Of a stretch of DNA of 64,000 nt, positions 10,297 through 58,259 are shown piece by piece. A program made the position numbers and the translations under genes. The stretch is from the NCBI GenBank assembly GCA_036489885.1, contig DASXEW010000003.1:558001-622000 (forward strand), in the 5' to 3' direction. The notes under the pieces were generated by a model. That model was not told the origin of the DNA. It did no database searches and was given only the letters and a program-made list of their open reading frames with translations. Position 1 is the first letter of the stretch; every line of letters begins with the position of its first letter. This stretch comes from Candidatus Baltobacteraceae bacterium (lineage in GTDB: Bacteria > Vulcanimicrobiota > Vulcanimicrobiia > Vulcanimicrobiales > Vulcanimicrobiaceae).

Positions 10297-12914
10297 CGCG
10301 CTGCTCCGTTCGCGGCGACTGCGGCCTTTAGCTCGGCGAGCGCGGCTCCGGCGCCCGAGGGATTGTTACCGCCGCCCTGAGCTTGCGTCGGCCCGCCGCC
10401 GCCTTTGCCGCCGATGTGCGGCGCGGCAATCTTCATTAGATCGCCGGCCTTCAAACCTTGCGTCGTTAGGGTCTCCGGGACGCTCACGATCATGCTGACG
10501 CGATCGCCAATTGTGCTCGTCACCGCGATCACGGCATCACTGTTGCGCTGACGCACGGCATTCACGACGCTGCGCAGATCGTCGTTCGAATAGTCTTTGA
10601 GCTCGACGACGACGATCGCACGGCCGTTCGACAACTTTTCGGGCTTGACGTCTTGTGCTTCCGCAGCCGCGAAGCGCGACTTGAGCTCGCCGACCGATTT
10701 TTGCAGATCGCGAATCTCGCTCTGCATTTTTTCGACGCGCTCCAGCAGCTCGTCGGGCTTGCTCGAGAGCCGCTCGGAAAGTGTCTCGACCAAATGTTGC
10801 TGATTTTGCACGAACGACTCGGCGGCGCGAGAGACGCACGACTCGATCCGCCGCACTCCGCTGCCAATCGAGGCTTCAGCCAGGATGATGAACATGCCGA
10901 GCTCACCGGTCGTATGCGCGTGCGTGCCGCCGCAAAACTCGACGGACGGTCCGGCTTGCACGACGCGCACCAGCTCGCCGTACTTCTCGCCCGCCATCCA
11001 ATACGCGCCGGTCTTCTTCGCTTCTTCGATCGGAAGCTCGCGCGTCACAAGGTGATGGTCTTCCCGAATCATCGCGTTGACGCGTTGGGAGACTCGGTCT
11101 TGCTGCTCGGTTGTTAGCGCACCGGCCGGCCAGCGAAAATCGAAACGCATCCGATCGATGCCGACCCACGAGCCGGCTTGCGCTACTTCGTCGCCGAGAA
11201 TCTCTTTGAGCGCCTTCTGTAAAAGATGCGCAGACGTATGGTGGCGCCGGATCTCTTCACGCCACATGGGATCGACGGCCGCGTTCACCCGCTCGCCGCG
11301 TCGCAGAATTCCCGAACGTAGCGTACCGTGATGCGCGATCGCCTCGCCGACGAACTGCGTGTCGGCGACATCGAAAACTGCCTCGCCGCCGGTGAGCTTG
11401 CCGCGATCGCCGATCTGGCCGCCCTTCTCGGCGTAAAAGGAGGTGTGGTCCAAGAAAATCTGCGCGGTCTCGCCGGCAACGAGCTCGTCGACCGGTTGGC
11501 CGTCACGCATGATCATCACGATCTCGCCGTCGGTCTGGAGCCCGGTGTAGCCGTGAAAAACACTGACGACGCTCGGGAGATCGGTGACGTTGACGACCGC
11601 GCGCTTTTCGGCTGCATCAGCACGTGCCCGCGCGCGTTGCTCTTGCATCGCCTCATCGAATCCGGGGACGTCAATTGCGACGCCGCGTTCCATCGCGATC
11701 TCGCGCGTCAGCTCGATTGGAAAGCCGTAGGTGTCATGCAGCGTAAACGCATCGTGTCCCGTGATCATCCGCGTACAGTCGCCGATCGCGTCGTCGACTA
11801 GCCCCTCGAGGAGCGCGTTGCCGCGATCGAGCGTGCGAATAAAGTTTTGCTCTTCACGCGCGAGCGCAGTTTGCACATCGCCGAGACGCTTGCGCAGCCC
11901 GGGATAGCCCGATGCAAGCGAATCCACGACGGCCCCGGCCAGCTGCGCCATGAACTCGCGTGGATAGCCGAGGATGCGCCCGTTGCGAATCGCACGCCGG
12001 ATCAAGAAGCGCAGGACGTAACCGCGATCGGTGTTCGACGGATAGACGCCGTCGGTGATCAAAAACGTTACGGCACGCGCGTGATCCGCAATGATGCGGC
12101 GGCGTTCGAGCTGTTCTTGCGCATGTAGGCCCTTGTTCTCGACCGCGGGTTGCGCCGCGATCAAGTCGGTGAACAAATCGGTCTCGTACATCGAGACCTT
12201 GCCGTTCGCAACGGCGAGCATTCGCTCGAGTCCGGCGCCCGTGTCGATCGCTTTACGCGGCAGCTCGGTCAGCTTGCCGTCAGCACCGCGATTATATTGT
12301 TGAAAGACGACGTTCCAAATCTCGAGATAGCGATCGCCTTTGTTCGGCCCGGTATCGTCGGGTCCCGACGCATACTGCGGACCGCTATCATAAAAAATCT
12401 CGCTGCACGGGCCGCACGGACCGGTCGGACCCATCGTCCAAAAGTTATCTTCATCCCAGCGCGTGATGCGATCGGACGATACGCCGATCTCCCGCTCCCA
12501 TATCGTTTGCGCTTCATCGTCGGTGAGATGAACGGTTACGTACAAGCGCTCTTTATCGAGCTTGAGAACTTGCGTGACGTACTCCCACGCAAACCCGATC
12601 GCTTCGCGCTTGTAGTAATCGCCGAAGCTGAAGTTGCCGAGCATCTCGAGGAACGTGCCGTGGCGTCCGGTCCGTCCGACGTTTTCGATATCGCTCTTTG
12701 CACCGGCGACGCGCAAGCACGGCTGCACGGTGACGACACGCGGCGCCGGCGCCGGGATTTCGCCCAGGAACACCGGCACGAATTGTTCCATGCCGGCGAT
12801 CGTGAAGAGCGTCGTCGACATCTCGTCCGGAATCAAGCTCGCAGGCGCAACGAGCTTGTGCCCACGAGAGACGAAATAATCGACAAACGACGCGCGTAAC
12901 TCTTCGCTCTTCAT
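10293..12914 (-). CDS. alaS: alanyl-tRNA synthetase
   Basis: The enzyme charges tRNA-Ala. The 873-residue chain begins MKSEELRASFVDYF, has the class II catalytic core at about 1-240, and then the editing domain with the zinc motif HTSAH and CGGTHAHTTGELG. A coiled-coil region leads to a C-terminal DHHA1-type domain with Gly-rich GGKGGGGPTQAQGGG near the end. The ATG at 12914 is preferred over upstream in-frame codons because it sits 10 bases after GGAG, and homologues start here. The 117-nt structured leader lies directly upstream. It overlaps the downstream gene by 4 bases. Confidence 0.97.
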   Translation of the reverse strand: MKSEELRASFVDYFVSRGHKLVAPASLIPDEMSTTLFTIAGMEQFVPVFLGEIPAPAPRVVTVQPCLRVAGAKSDIENVGRTGRHGTFLEMLGNFSFGDYYKREAIGFAWEYVTQVLKLDKERLYVTVHLTDDEAQTIWEREIGVSSDRITRWDEDNFWTMGPTGPCGPCSEIFYDSGPQYASGPDDTGPNKGDRYLEIWNVVFQQYNRGADGKLTELPRKAIDTGAGLERMLAVANGKVSMYETDLFTDLIAAQPAVENKGLHAQEQLERRRIIADHARAVTFLITDGVYPSNTDRGYVLRFLIRRAIRNGRILGYPREFMAQLAGAVVDSLASGYPGLRKRLGDVQTALAREEQNFIRTLDRGNALLEGLVDDAIGDCTRMITGHDAFTLHDTYGFPIELTREIAMERGVAIDVPGFDEAMQEQRARARADAAEKRAVVNVTDLPSVVSVFHGYTGLQTDGEIVMIMRDGQPVDELVAGETAQIFLDHTSFYAEKGGQIGDRGKLTGGEAVFDVADTQFVGEAIAHHGTLRSGILRRGERVNAAVDPMWREEIRRHHTSAHLLQKALKEILGDEVAQAGSWVGIDRMRFDFRWPAGALTTEQQDRVSQRVNAMIREDHHLVTRELPIEEAKKTGAYWMAGEKYGELVRVVQAGPSVEFCGGTHAHTTGELGMFIILAEASIGSGVRRIESCVSRAAESFVQNQQHLVETLSERLSSKPDELLERVEKMQSEIRDLQKSVGELKSRFAAAEAQDVKPEKLSNGRAIVVVELKDYSNDDLRSVVNAVRQRNSDAVIAVTSTIGDRVSMIVSVPETLTTQGLKAGDLMKIAAPHIGGKGGGGPTQAQGGGNNPSGAGAALAELKAAVAANGAAR

Positions 12915-13031
12915 TTTGACGGTGCTCCGCCCCAGGCTCCGCACCCCCCATGCTTCGCATGGGGCCCCCAAACCGTCGAGCCCATCGACATTTCGAAAAC
13001 GAAAACGTTCCCCGAGGGGGCTCGTAACAAC
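12915..13031 (-). promoter_or_regulatory. 117-nt structured leader element, copy A (before alaS)
   Basis: Read on the minus strand, the element starts GTTGTTACGAGCCCCC and ends CGGAGCACCGTCAAA directly at the alaS ATG. Predicted helices are GAGCCC with GGGCTC, CCCCATGC-GAA-GCATGGGG, GACGGT with ACCGTC, and the alternative GGTGC with GCACC. The last two cannot form together. GGAG, 10 bases before the ATG, lies inside this alternative. Two other copies of the same length lie before atpA and a GT2 gene. The 39 codons are stop-free in the alaS frame, but the ribosome site argues that they are untranslated. Confidence 0.75.
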
Positions 13032-13040
13032 AAGCTACCT

Positions 13041-27816: not shown

Positions 27817-29315
27817 TAGAAGCTCTTGTTGAACTCCCCGATAGCGGCCTCGAGCTTCTTTTCCGTCTCGTCGTCGACGGCTTTCTTCTCTTTGATGGCG
27901 CTGGTGATGTCTTTGTGCTGCTCGTGCAAGAACGAGACGAAGCGCGCGACCCAATCCTGCAGCTTATTGGTCGGGAGCGAATCCAGATATCCGCGGGTTG
28001 CCGCGAAGATGACCGCAACCTGATCCTCGACCGGCTGCGGATGGTATTGCCGCTGCACGAGAACCTCGGTGATCTTCTCACCACGCGTCAGCTGCTGCTG
28101 CGTGTTCTTGTCGAGATCGGCAGCCAGCTTGGTAAATGCCGCAAGCGCGCGGTACTGTGCAAGGTCGAGCTTCAGTCGACCCGCGACCGAACGCATCGCC
28201 TTGATCTGCGCCGAACCGCCGACGCGCGAAACCGAGATGCCGACATCGATTGCGGGACGGATGCCCTGGAAGAACAGCCCCGATTCGAGATAGATCTGAC
28301 CGTCGGTGATCGAGATCAAGTTCGTCGGAATGTAGGCCGAAACGTCGCCGGCTTGCGTCTCGATGACCGGCAATGCCGTCAACGAACCGCCGCCCTTTTC
28401 ATCCGACAGTTTTGCCGCGCGTTCCAAGAGACGTGAGTGCAGATAGAAGATATCGCCGGGATATGCCTCACGGCCCGGCGGCCGGCGCAGCAACAGCGAA
28501 ACCTCGCGATACGCCTGCGCGTGCTTCGTAAGATCGTCGTAGATGATCAGCACATCTTTGCCCGCATACATCAACTCTTCACCCATCGCGCAACCCGCGA
28601 AGGGCGCGATGTACTTGAGTGCGGCGGGCTCCGACGACGACACGCTGACGATCGTCGTGTACTTCATCGCGCCTTGCTTCTCGAGCGTTTGGGCTAGCGA
28701 AGCGACGGTCGAATTCTTCTGACCGATCGCAACATAGATGCAGAAGACGCCTTGGTCTTTCTGATTGATGATCGCATCGATCGCAATCGCCGTCTTTCCC
28801 GAACCACGATCGCCGATGATCAGCTCACGTTGGCCGCGTCCGATTGGAACCAGTGCGTCGATTGCACGCAACCCGGTCTGCAACGGCTGCTTGACCGGTT
28901 GGCGCTCGATGACCGTCGGCGCAGTGTTCTCGATCGTGCGATACCGTTTGGTGTCGATCGGGCCTTTGCCGTCGATCGGCTGTCCGAGCGGGTTGACGAC
29001 GCGTCCGAGCAGTGCCTCACCGACGGGAACGGATGCGATGCGGCCGGTGCGGCGCACGCGATTGCCTTCCTGAATGTCCTCGTCCGGCCCCATGATGATG
29101 ACGCCGACGTTGTCCTCTTCGAGATTGAGAACGATGCCTTCGATTCCATTCGGGAACTCGACGAGCTCGGAAAACTGCGCTGCGTCCAAACCGTAAACGC
29201 GCGCAATCGAATCGCCGACCTCGATGACCGTTCCGACCTGATCTTCTTTGAGATCGGTGTTGAACGAGGCGATCTGTTGTTTGAGAATTCCGGCGATTTC
29301 ATCTGCGTTGATCAT
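27816..29315 (-). CDS. atpA: ATP synthase F1 alpha subunit
   Basis: The non-catalytic nucleotide-binding subunit. It starts [18 protein letters not shown] and has the P-loop [15 protein letters not shown]. It ends with a short Lys-rich helix. The ATG at 29315 lies directly after the 117-nt leader and 10 bases after its GGAG; 499 residues is normal. A longer in-frame opening to 29372 would read part of the leader as protein and is rejected. Confidence 0.97.
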
Positions 29316-29432
29316 TTTGAAGGCGCTCCGCCCCAGGCTCGGCGCCCCCCATGCTGCGCATGGGGCCCCCAAAGCGCCGAGCCCGGAAGCATTTCGAATG
29401 AGTGAAGATTCCCCGAGGGGGCTCGAAACAAC
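29316..29432 (-). promoter_or_regulatory. 117-nt structured leader element, copy B (before atpA)
   Basis: The same element as before alaS, gap-free and of identical length, ending CGGAGCGCCTTCAAA at the atpA ATG. Here the outer helix is GGCGCT with AGCGCC instead of GACGGT with ACCGTC, which is compensatory change. GGCTCGGCGC can also pair with GCGCCGAGCC over 10 bases, in competition with GAGCCC-GGGCTC. It begins 1 base after the atpH stop, inside the atp operon. This could set the higher expression that F1 alpha/beta need relative to Fo subunits. Confidence 0.75.
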
Positions 29433-29433
29433 A

Positions 29434-29973
29434 TCATCTTGTTTGTAAAGTCCTCATGAGTTCGTTGAGTTTGCCCGCGACGGTACCGTCGATTGAGACG
29501 TCGCCCATGCGGATACGGACGCCGCCGAGAAGACTCGGATCGACGCGCTCCTCGACGTCGAACTTTTTTCCATACATCTTCGAGAGCGCCGCGACGAGAT
29601 CGTCAAGCTCTTTACGCGGCAACTTGTGCGCGCTCGAGACGATCAGAGGTTCCTCGCCGCGCGAAGCGCGTTCGAGAACAGCGTACTGGCGCAGCAGCTC
29701 GGGTAGGATGCGCTCGCGGCGCTTGCGCACCAGCAGCAACAGCGTGTGCAGCGCCAGCTCCTCGATTTTCCCGTTGAACGCATCCAGCAACACTTTTTGC
29801 TTTTCGTTGCGGTCGATTACCGGCGCAACGAAAAATCGCACCACGCCGTCGTCTTCCTGCATCGCATCCCAAGCGGTGCGCAGGTCGCTGCCGATCTCGG
29901 CGATCTTTCCGCTTTCCTTCGCGAGATCGAAGACGGCTTGCGCGTAACGGCGCGCTAGGGTCTCGTTAGCCAC
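29434..29973 (-). CDS. atpH: ATP synthase F1 delta subunit
   Basis: The 179-residue peripheral stalk protein starts [20 protein letters not shown] and ends [21 protein letters not shown], both family hallmarks. It links F1 to the b subunits. It overlaps the atpF stop by 1 base and is followed by leader copy B. Confidence 0.95.
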
Positions 29974-48385: not shown

Positions 48386-49253
48386 TGAGTGCGGCTTTGA
48401 TCCCTGAGATGTAGTGATATTGATAGGCAATCGTTCGAGCCAGGGGCCAGGTTGCGGAACGCCGGTCCAGCCAGTCCCGAATTGCGGGTGTGCGCTCGAG
48501 CAGACTGTGTACGCCGAGGGAGAGCGGGGTCATTCCCAATCTCAGCTTGACGACAAATGCCGGATGCTTACGGTAGAAGCGCACCGTCGAGCGCCCGGCC
48601 AGCTCCATCTTCGACTTCTGATCCTCGAACCCGACGTCTTGCAAATGGTAGTTGATGGCTTTGGGTTCGTAAACGATCCGTACGCCACTCGTTTCCAAAC
48701 GATATCCAAGCTCGAGATCCTCGTGGCCATAGCCGGTGAAGCTCTCGTCGAACCCACCGACGGCGTCGAGATCTCTTTTGGGAACCGAGGCGTTGCCGGT
48801 GAGAAAGTACAGCCACGAGAGCCGCTTACGATTCGGCGGATGCAGCGAGTCACGCGACGGCGCCCGGGCGCTCTTTGTGAGAAACTCGTCGTACGAGCGG
48901 ACTTGCACCTCGAGTCCGACCACGGCGGACCTTCCGGTTTCGTGCCGCCTGAGATGCCGTTCGAGCAAATCACGCGACGCGATGATGTCGCTGTCATTGA
49001 AAAGAATGATCCGCCCGGTTGCGGCCGCAATGCCTGCGTTGCGTGCGCCGGCGCGACCCGTGTACTTGCCCGGCATGTGGCGGACGCGCGGCTCGCGCGC
49101 CAAATATTCCGCCGTGCCGTCGGTCGAGTTCGAATCGGCGACGATCACTTCGTAACGCTCCGGCGCGATGCTCTGCGACATCAGCGACGGGATTACGTGC
49201 TGGAGCGTCTCGAGACGATTGTAGGTCGGAACGACGACGGAAATATCGATCAT
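48378..49253 (-). CDS. family 2 glycosyltransferase
   Basis: GT-A fold: VVVPTYNRLETLQHVIPSL at the start and the metal-binding FNDSDI near residue 88. EDLELGYRLE near 200 is the acceptor-side acidic motif. 291 residues. The ATG directly follows leader copy C and is 10 bases after GGAG. It is probably involved in LPS or other glycan assembly. Confidence 0.9.
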   Translation of the reverse strand: MIDISVVVPTYNRLETLQHVIPSLMSQSIAPERYEVIVADSNSTDGTAEYLAREPRVRHMPGKYTGRAGARNAGIAAATGRIILFNDSDIIASRDLLERHLRRHETGRSAVVGLEVQVRSYDEFLTKSARAPSRDSLHPPNRKRLSWLYFLTGNASVPKRDLDAVGGFDESFTGYGHEDLELGYRLETSGVRIVYEPKAINYHLQDVGFEDQKSKMELAGRSTVRFYRKHPAFVVKLRLGMTPLSLGVHSLLERTPAIRDWLDRRSATWPLARTIAYQYHYISGIKAALSE

Positions 49254-49370
49254 TCTAACGGCGCTCCGCCCCAGGCTCCGCGCCCCCCACGCTTCGCGCG
49301 GGGCCCCCCAACCGTCGAGCCCGTGAGGATTTCGATAATGTAAGCATGTCCCGAGAGGGCTCGTAACAAC
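49254..49370 (-). promoter_or_regulatory. 117-nt structured leader element, copy C (before a GT2 gene)
   Basis: Third full copy, again 117 nt. It ends CGGAGCGCCGTTAGA at the ATG. The central hairpin is CCCCGCGC-GAA-GCGTGGGG; compared with copy A, an A-U pair becomes G-U and a U-A pair becomes C-G, so pairing is kept. TCGAAAT and GGGCTCGACGG are shared. It begins 2 bases after the stop of the upstream gene. Confidence 0.75.
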
Positions 49371-49372
49371 AT

Positions 49373-55194: not shown

Positions 55195-56159
55195 AAATCA
55201 CGTACCGCGGCAGCGACGGGCGCATCGCGTCCCGCAACGAGACATGCATGCGGCGCGGCCCAGGGTTCCCATCGGACAATTTCGGAGCGCGCCCAGGGGA
55301 CGTCCGGAAAAAGATCGACGCATGGCGTCCCCGTCATTCCCGCCACGTGCGCAGCTCCGGTATCGGTCGTGACGAGGACGCGAGCTTCTGCGATCGCGCG
55401 TTTCCAAGCGCGCATACCCTCGTCGCCGTCGAAGACCGTTGCGTCGATCGTCTCGGAGTCGTCGAGAAACTCGCGCAAGGCTCGAATCTCACCGGCTTCC
55501 TCACCGCTGACCAGTAGACGCACGGGCCCAAGCGGCCGCAGTTCGCGCACGATCGCACCCAAGAGCGCGCGCTCGATCCCCATCGCCGCCCACTTCGGAC
55601 CAAGCTGCACGGCGATCGGAGCATCGGGTGCACGTGCCGCCGCCCCGTCGACGACCAGCGGCGATAAGCGCGCAGCCTCGCGCGGAGGCGTTGGTTCGTC
55701 GTGCAATCCTTCGCCCAAACGAAAGAGCGTCTCGACTTCGTGTTCGCGTGCGCGCTTCGCGGCCGCCGAACGTACGATGGCGTGATCGAGAAGACGGCGT
55801 GTCGTCAGACTCTTGAGCGGCTTTTCCCATCCGTTGATGAATCCGACACGCCGCCTCGCACAACGGCGAGCGAGAATGTACGCATCCGGCTCTTCCGACG
55901 CCACAAGCGCAAGATCGTACCCGATCCCTCCGGCAGCCGTTACCGCCGCTTCCACATCTTTTTGGGCGTGACCGTGCGCCGGCCAGGGATTGCGCTCGAG
56001 TATATGGGTCCACGCAAATGTGGGCCGCGCAAAGACGGCGGCATTACGCTGCGTGAGTGCGATACCGAGATCGTGTCCGGCCGAGCGCAGTACGGCGATC
56101 AGAGGCGTACAGGCAAGGGCGTCACCAATCCCGTCGAGCCTAACGACCAGGATCTTCAT
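55179..56159 (-). CDS. family 9 glycosyltransferase (heptosyltransferase-like)
   Basis: 326 residues. MKILVVRLDGIGDALACTPL and TTDTGAAHVAGMTGTP are GT9 motifs. Its start lies inside the end of the GT2 gene, just after the half-copy element, with no clear ribosome site. Confidence 0.87.
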   Translation of the reverse strand: MKILVVRLDGIGDALACTPLIAVLRSAGHDLGIALTQRNAAVFARPTFAWTHILERNPWPAHGHAQKDVEAAVTAAGGIGYDLALVASEEPDAYILARRCARRRVGFINGWEKPLKSLTTRRLLDHAIVRSAAAKRAREHEVETLFRLGEGLHDEPTPPREAARLSPLVVDGAAARAPDAPIAVQLGPKWAAMGIERALLGAIVRELRPLGPVRLLVSGEEAGEIRALREFLDDSETIDATVFDGDEGMRAWKRAIAEARVLVTTDTGAAHVAGMTGTPCVDLFPDVPWARSEIVRWEPWAAPHACLVAGRDAPVAAAVRDLCARF

Positions 56160-57051
56160 TACGACTCGATTTCGATTCCCCGAGGGGGCCCTTAAATTTC
56201 ATTTCCTTGTCCAGCTGTTGCAAATATAGCCCGTCGAGCAACCTGTTGCGCGCAAAGCCGATGACGGACGATGGCAGCACGTCGCTGCTGGCAACGCCGG
56301 CGAGAAACGGAAGCAACGGAGCAACGAGATTTGCGCGCGCGAGATTGAGGGGATACGCGCCGGTCGCGAGTTTGGTACGTAGCGTTGGACTCTTTTGCAC
56401 GAACCGCGCCGCCATCGTGGCTTTCTCGACGGTCCTTCGAATCGCAAGCTCGAGCGGCTCGGGCGGCTTGATGTGACACAAGAATGCATCCCAAGCAAAC
56501 GCGTGCTCGAGCCCGGCGTTGCGCAGTCGCAGGCCGAGCTCCGTGTCTTCCCACCCATACAGATTGAACGCCTCATCGAAGCCACCGACAGCATCTAGCG
56601 CGACCTTCGACACCGAAGCGTTGCACGTGCAAAAGAATGCGCTCGAATAGTTCGAGGCGGCCGGACGCGGACGGTGCGTATAATCCGGGACGTTGAGGAT
56701 CGGCCCGGTGACGACGCGCGAGCGTCCGCCGCGATGTTTGCCGGCGTGCGCAGCGATGAAATTCGGCGGCAACCACACGTCGTCGTCGACGAACAAGATC
56801 AGCTCGCCGGCGGCGGCCGCGATACCCATATTCCGTGCCAATCCACGATTCGCGCGACCAGCCTCGATCCGACGCAAATGATATGGAACGATCTCGACCG
56901 CATCTGCAACGACTTGCGGCGTCCCGTCCGTCGAACCGTTGTCGGCGACGACGACTTCGAATTCGGGCGCATTGCGCTGTTGTCCGAGCGACTCGAGCGC
57001 ACGCTGCAGAAACAAGGCGCGATCTTTGGTTGCAATGACGATCGAGATCAT
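56140..57051 (-). CDS. family 2 glycosyltransferase with element-derived C-terminus
   Basis: 303 residues. SIVIATKDRALFLQRALESL starts the GT-A fold, LFVDDDVWLPPNF is the DXD and YGWEDTELGLRLR the late motif. The last 18 residues, from KGPLGESKSSRNE, are read from the half-copy of the 117-nt element. The start overlaps the next gene as ATGA. Confidence 0.87.
   Translation of the reverse strand: MISIVIATKDRALFLQRALESLGQQRNAPEFEVVVADNGSTDGTPQVVADAVEIVPYHLRRIEAGRANRGLARNMGIAAAAGELILFVDDDVWLPPNFIAAHAGKHRGGRSRVVTGPILNVPDYTHRPRPAASNYSSAFFCTCNASVSKVALDAVGGFDEAFNLYGWEDTELGLRLRNAGLEHAFAWDAFLCHIKPPEPLELAIRRTVEKATMAARFVQKSPTLRTKLATGAYPLNLARANLVAPLLPFLAGVASSDVLPSSVIGFARNRLLDGLYLQQLDKEMKFKGPLGESKSSRNEDPGR
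56165..56194 (-). repeat. half-copy of the 117-nt element
   Basis: On the minus strand GGGCCCCCTCGGGGAA-TCGAAAT matches the 5' half of the leader element (GAGCCCCCTCGGGGAA ... TCGAAAT), with a shorter spacer. The 3' half is absent. It lies inside the GT2 reading frame and 5 bases before the GT9 ATG. Confidence 0.6.
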
Positions 57052-58259
57052 GCCGCGAGCGCCTCCGCCATCCGCTCGGCGGCTCCGCGGTGGCCGATGT
57101 ACAACGCGCGCAGCGCATCTGACGTCGACGCACGCCATGCCTCGTCTCGATACCGTTCGACGACTCGCTGCGCGACATAACCCGGCGTCAGCGTGCCCGT
57201 AAGTTCGGGGATCAGCTCGCGTTCCGCATCCATATTCGGCTGCGTGAAGTATGTGAAGCGCTTCGTGTATTGAAGCACCAATTGGCGTTTGAGCGGCGTT
57301 CCAATGAACGGCACGCGTTCGACGTATTGAAGCGGTCCGTTGATGACGGCAGCCTCGGGTGCGTTGAACGGAACCGTCGCGAGCATCGGCACGCCGAGAG
57401 CGGCTAGCTCGATCGTCTTCGTACCGGGTATCGTCACCACCATACGAGCGCGTGTCGCCGCATGCATCGCGTGACGTACGACCGCGAACTCTTGGGTGCG
57501 ATCCTCATTTTGAAGAAAGAGTATTCCGTCGCGTTCCGCGACGTAGCCGCGCGCACCATAAACGGTGGGAAGGCCGCCTTTCTCGAGCGCACGTGCGACC
57601 TCGTCCGCGGTCGTAAACGGCGACAGTCCGAAAACGATCGGGATCTCGGGATCGGTCTCGCGGATGCGTAAGGCAGCGCGCAAGAAAAATGGAACCAAAT
57701 TGGCGATCTCTTGACGCCGTGAGCCCGGCATGATCACGATTCCGTCGGTTGCAAATGCGGTCGCCGGCTCATCGCCGGTTTCGACCTCGCGAAACGCAGC
57801 GTCGATTGCAAGATTGCCGACGATCGTGATCCGTTCCGGCGGCGTTTTCCATTCGACGAGCTGCGTACGATTACGTTCGTCGACCGCAAAGACCCGCGCG
57901 AATTGCGTACGATAGCGTGGACGCGAAAACTTGTACGAGGTCGTCTCGGCGTGCAGGCGTTTGCCGATGTGCGTGGCGTGCATCAAATCGCCGCCGAGGT
58001 ACTGCACGCGATCGGCTCGCGCGGGCACCCCATCAACTTTCCCGCCGAGCGCAAATCGGATGTATTCGCTCGGCCGGAAGACTTGCAGCTGTGGAAACTC
58101 AGCGCGAGCGACTACGGATTCGCGGCCAGTCGCAAAGTCATCCGGGACGAAGAATACGCTAGCCTGCAAGCTCGGGTCACGCGCGTACAACGCCGAGAGC
58201 AGCGGCCGCAGCCAGCCCGCGTACTCGCCGGGACCGTTGACGGTGAATGCGATCTTCAC
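57048..58259 (-). CDS. LpxB-related glycosyltransferase
   Basis: 403 residues that begin MKIAFTVNGPGEYAGWLRPL and have MPGSRRQEI and IPGTKTIELAALGVPML, as in lipid-A-disaccharide synthase and its relatives. Because some key LpxB residues cannot be checked, it is called related. It would act in lipid A or another glycolipid. Confidence 0.75.
   Translation of the reverse strand: MKIAFTVNGPGEYAGWLRPLLSALYARDPSLQASVFFVPDDFATGRESVVARAEFPQLQVFRPSEYIRFALGGKVDGVPARADRVQYLGGDLMHATHIGKRLHAETTSYKFSRPRYRTQFARVFAVDERNRTQLVEWKTPPERITIVGNLAIDAAFREVETGDEPATAFATDGIVIMPGSRRQEIANLVPFFLRAALRIRETDPEIPIVFGLSPFTTADEVARALEKGGLPTVYGARGYVAERDGILFLQNEDRTQEFAVVRHAMHAATRARMVVTIPGTKTIELAALGVPMLATVPFNAPEAAVINGPLQYVERVPFIGTPLKRQLVLQYTKRFTYFTQPNMDAERELIPELTGTLTPGYVAQRVVERYRDEAWRASTSDALRALYIGHRGAAERMAEALAA

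Follow-up and report, generated by a model that had tools for sequence, protein, structure and literature searches.

Rickettsia palindromic elements (RPE) form palindromic repeat families that are dispersed in the genome with translated frames, and they occur as in-frame inserts inside proteins. Mycobacterial interspersed repetitive units (MIRUs) are described as repeats, apparently mobile, that enter at start codons and carry an internal ORF coupled at -4, which probably limits the effect of the insertion (review, 2025, PMC12548453), and 41 MIRU loci are present in H37Rv (PMC3914561). They are cited as an example of how a mobile repeat can use translational coupling to insert without harm. 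The repeat described here belongs, with good probability on comparative sequence evidence, to a group of short mobile elements in Eremiobacterota, non-autonomous and inserted at gene junctions, whose upstream open reading frame (uORF) keeps translational coupling between the neighbouring genes.

The window, the whole 64,000-nucleotide stretch of DNA that was analysed, contains three type A copies of the element on the minus strand, located 5' of alaS (copy 1, 12915-13031), between an atpH-like gene and atpA (copy 2, 29316-29432), and 5' of a GT2 glycosyltransferase gene (copy 3, 49254-49370). The description in the earlier note of a 117-nt element in three gap-free copies is borne out, with copies 2 and 3 being 82% and 77% identical to copy 1, and every copy runs up to the ATG of a gene whose identity was verified, preceded by GGAG plus 10 nt as reported (Pfam: alaS, PF01411; atpA, PF00006/PF00306/PF02874; GT2, PF00535). 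That the 39 codons are free of stops in the frame of the downstream gene is true of these three copies and fails in at least a dozen others. The relevant frame is another one, running in the window copies from an ATG or TTG at the 5' end to the TGA of the downstream ATGA. All three uORFs lie on the minus strand and comprise 40 codons. In copy 1 (12911-13033) the uORF starts with TTG, and its TGA stop overlaps the alaS ATGA (-4); in copy 2 (29312-29434) its ATG overlaps the upstream stop (TGATG) and its TGA overlaps the atpA ATGA; and in copy 3 (49250-49372) its ATG immediately follows the upstream TAA and its TGA again overlaps an ATGA. In addition, a decayed type A 5' half (AAGGGCCCCCTCGGGGAATC...TCGTAATG; GGGCCCCCTCGGGGAATC; repeat family D4), probably a remnant, lies at 56155-56195 on the minus strand, in front of a gene that begins with MKILVVRLDGIGDA, and is read through by the upstream ORF (56140-57138).

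The typical element consists of a start codon, a 5' hairpin with a variable loop (P1), a length-variable hairpin (P2), a third hairpin (P3) and the motif KTNARA, and the following gene has its start codon 6 nt after P3. In copy 1 (minus strand), P1 occupies 12977-13024 (CGAGCCC...GGGCTCG) and shows covariation among copies, P2 occupies 12946-12964 (CCCCATGC-GAA-GCATGGGG) and is length-variable and covarying, and P3 occupies 12921-12945 (GGTGC GGA GCC TGG GGC GGA GCACC), with the GGAG Shine-Dalgarno sequence in its 3' side. The P3 consensus (GGYGC GGA GCC TGG GGC GGA GCRCC) likewise contains GGAG. Type A and type B are distinguished by the context of the start codon (ATG TTGTT and ATG GTGATGG, respectively), and the element measures about 112-120 nt, or about 180 nt in a long variant (L229-L234; G122, G126) that carries three to four extra hairpins inside the P3 stem. 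Standard pairs make up 91.3% of P1-P3 in type A, with 10 pairs changed on both sides, and 98.8% in type B, with 5 such pairs; the main covariation measures were reached by 0-1 of 500 shuffles. This pairing signal could come from RNA or from a DNA palindrome, so covariation alone does not show an RNA function, and the single-sequence folding energy of the element (z between -2.5 and +0.5) was uninformative. In 7 copies of the genome (L082 via overlapping matches) the half GTTGTTGCGAGGCCGG precedes the half GTGATGGGCCGAGCGC, whereas in 44 copies the corresponding 5' hairpin halves stand in reverse order, and L021, L024, L027, L080, L085, and L086 show the opposite order to type B copies. One helix can form from either order, with its loop at opposite ends, as if it had been circularly permuted.

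The search for further copies proposed in the earlier note was successful, yielding 41 hits in the same genome with a covariance model built on the 3' domain of the element (R1) and many in relatives. Together with 34 BLAST hits in this genome (best non-self E = 1e-32), these hits place the window element far beyond chance. The model matches 67 of 149 Eremiobacterota genomes, 66 of which belong to one family, with a patchy copy number ranging from 1 to 33 or more per matching genome. When 84,980 species, represented by one genome each, were scanned for a degenerate 27-nt signature, 48 stretches were retrieved, every one of them labelled Candidatus Eremiobacterota or WPS-2. No account of the repeat in Eremiobacterota turned up in literature searches.

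The analysis worked on stretches surrounding the copies, with genes called by a simple codon model. Most copies immediately precede a gene in the same orientation, in keeping with the view of the earlier note that this is one element, in a constant place before the starts of unrelated genes, where it supplies the ribosome site; the element is also structured. Its location on one strand holds within the window and not genome-wide, where 19 minus-strand and 22 plus-strand copies follow the direction of the genes. The earlier note had also held that copies scattered relative to genes would speak against it, and this is partly the case, since about half of the signature-picked copies in relatives are not directly before a start. 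The junction position is therefore strongly preferred without being obligatory, insertion extends beyond start-codon sites, and selection instead of targeting may lie behind part of the positional pattern. Some copies are antisense, adjoin a tRNA gene, or are distant from starts, and at junctions with antisense copies the end of the element itself offers stop codons on that strand, which limits what these copies can say about targeting. The secY-adk junction carries an antisense copy in G118 (L118/L190) and a sense copy in G125. The glmS leader of G125 holds two near-identical elements in tandem, 127 nt apart (L114), and glmS leaders in several species carry differing element types. Divergent elements occur before rpmJ (ribosomal protein L36) in two genera (L028 in G000; L134, L189, L191, and L192 in genus g37), which suggests that this junction was hit by repeated insertion. 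In G076, an inverted type A 5' domain immediately follows an element (L034).

Comparison with relatives revealed empty sites at the alaS, atpA, sufU-like, secY-adk, nadD, and L112 loci, several of them with native -1/-4 overlaps. G076, a genome of the same genus, and further relatives (including G073 for alaS and G074 for atpA) lack the alaS and atpA elements, and a divergent element is present at atpA in G033. For one G125 element in genus g37, the corresponding junction is empty in all eight alignable relatives; for a second, it is empty in six, occupied in one, and marked by a relic in one. At secY-adk, where G125 carries the element, most relatives show either a -4 overlap or a short spacer, and at the L112 locus most show TRATG overlaps or short spacers; at nadD, the relatives show -4 or -1 overlaps. 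Since the empty sites of the relatives are ordinary -1/-4 overlaps or short spacers, the element was evidently acquired by insertion. In the inserted copies the downstream start codon stays in place and the upstream gene retains a stop.

The uORF comprises 38-40 codons, or 60-62 in the long variant. Its stop falls within -3 to +4 nt of the downstream start in 44 of the 48 copies having both, and its start overlaps the upstream stop at -1 (TRATG) in 14 of 40. Because the length of the element varies by single bases, the uORF arrives at the downstream gene in different registers, which were compared across 66 copies. With p-values that are approximate and not fully independent, as the copies are related, a stop at -4 to -2 was found in 28/32 register-1 copies vs 6/25 register-2 copies (p = 1.6e-6), an association also present within type A (p = 0.0019) and type B (p = 0.0018) and thus not only a matter of subfamily descent; the downstream gene starts with ATGA in 20/25 register-2 copies vs a background of 43% (p = 1.5e-4); and a stop at -3 to -1 occurs in 4/9 register-0 copies vs 1/57 elsewhere (p = 8e-4). 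This exit rule extends to internally deleted copies (L022, before urease alpha, and the short relic L146) and to long ones (L229-L232 and L234, with uORFs of 60-62 codons), where the uORF stop lies at -1 or +4. Stops in frame 2 of the element occur in 7/48 copies, which leaves that frame nearly open as well, so the open frame alone is weak evidence, and it is the register comparison that carries the case for the uORF. Premature uORF stops were present in 5/12 copies away from starts vs 6/55 at starts (p = 0.02). Conservation applies to the open frame, both of its junctions and the RNA/DNA hairpins, and not to the peptide.

In the proposed mechanism, the element first enters where two neighbouring genes meet, often at a stop/start site that is translationally coupled (TRATG or RTGA). 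The uORF begins at or near the upstream stop and terminates on or next to the downstream start, which would turn one coupled junction into two, from the upstream stop to the uORF start and from the uORF stop to the downstream start. We infer that the uORF is actually translated and, from established knowledge of translational coupling, that ribosomes pass through the insert by re-initiating on the downstream gene, and that uORF-translating ribosomes open P3 and with it the Shine-Dalgarno GGAG held in this 3' hairpin; a transposition machinery would account for the spread of the element.

The earlier note favoured a functional leader, considered here as an untranslated cis-regulatory or translation-enhancing RNA whose hairpins present the ribosome site. 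The covarying hairpins, the constant 6-nt spacing to the start codon and the position of GGAG within the 3' hairpin would all suit such a leader, but the uORF register is maintained, and the position of termination tracks insert length modulo 3, which is not required of an untranslated leader. Moreover, close relatives lack the element at these genes, it has no Rfam match at the curated threshold, and no theme or regulon was found among the genes 3' of it, for which reason a regulon reading was rejected as well; a leader of this kind is thus quite unlikely. The main alternative in the earlier note, a translated in-frame N-terminal extension like RPE, agrees with the stop-free downstream frame of the three window copies and is contradicted by stops in that frame in many other copies, by uORFs that terminate at the start codon, and by a distance between the 5' ATG and the 3' ATG that is not a multiple of 3 in 57 of 66 copies. 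It was rejected on account of the downstream-frame stops, and we regard it as highly improbable.

A selfish MITE- or REP-like repeat would suit the patchy copy number and the copies that are antisense, beside a tRNA gene or off starts. Under this explanation, the intergenic place and the open frame would be by-products of purifying selection against damage, and the uORF would have no role of its own. It is an improbable account, as the open frame and its register are maintained in several architectures, the alignments show no terminal inverted repeats, and most high-copy genomes are without the Y1/REP transposase family. No match to this family (PF01797) was obtained in G000, G076, and most other high-copy genomes, and among g37 genomes only G124 had one; mobilisation by a REP/RAYT system was rejected for this absence.

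Insertion with a coupling-preserving uORF, the preferred reading, also admits a bolder form, namely an unrecognised, phylum-specific class of mobile 'translation relay', in which a machinery would recognise overlapping stop/start codons and the Shine-Dalgarno sequence would be locked in a hairpin opened only by the uORF-translating ribosome, the related hairpin spreading in two strand orders. This bolder form is conceivable, although we would put it at somewhat below even chances. If it were true, the essential genes rpmJ, atpA, alaS, and adk would depend on ribosome hand-over through an insert. A presumably unrelated family in another phylum, with empty sites across many relatives and three exit registers, makes coupling-based insertion testable as a general strategy, and its copies offer natural experiments that ask if stop/start overlaps of -1 and -4 truly hand over ribosomes in essential operons. 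Annotation that ignores the element would misread both the uORFs and, for many genes, the true start codon.

Among known systems, REP/REPIN sequences with RAYT (Y1) resemble the Eremiobacterota element as hairpin repeats dispersed between genes, and they differ in that the latter is strongly positioned and oriented relative to start codons and that Y1 transposases are lacking in most of its high-copy genomes. Unlike RPE, the element has a frame that closes at the following gene's start codon, and in-frame insertion within a CDS was not found. With MIRU, the element shares its nature as a short interspersed repeat at many intergenic loci, with dozens of copies per genome (41 here), an internal ORF with -4 coupling to the gene that follows (here judged by sequence only, and with -1 exits too), and insertion at start codons, here with empty sites in relatives. 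It differs from MIRU in phylum, its signature being found only in Eremiobacterota; in length, exceeding the 46-101 bp of the MIRU unit; in its three covarying hairpins with several interchangeable 5' hairpin modules; in its exit in three registers (-4, -1, and a stop just before the start); and in being mostly single, with only one clear tandem pair. The Eremiobacterota element is best read as a presumably unrelated analogue that would work like MIRU and is not classed as a MIRU.
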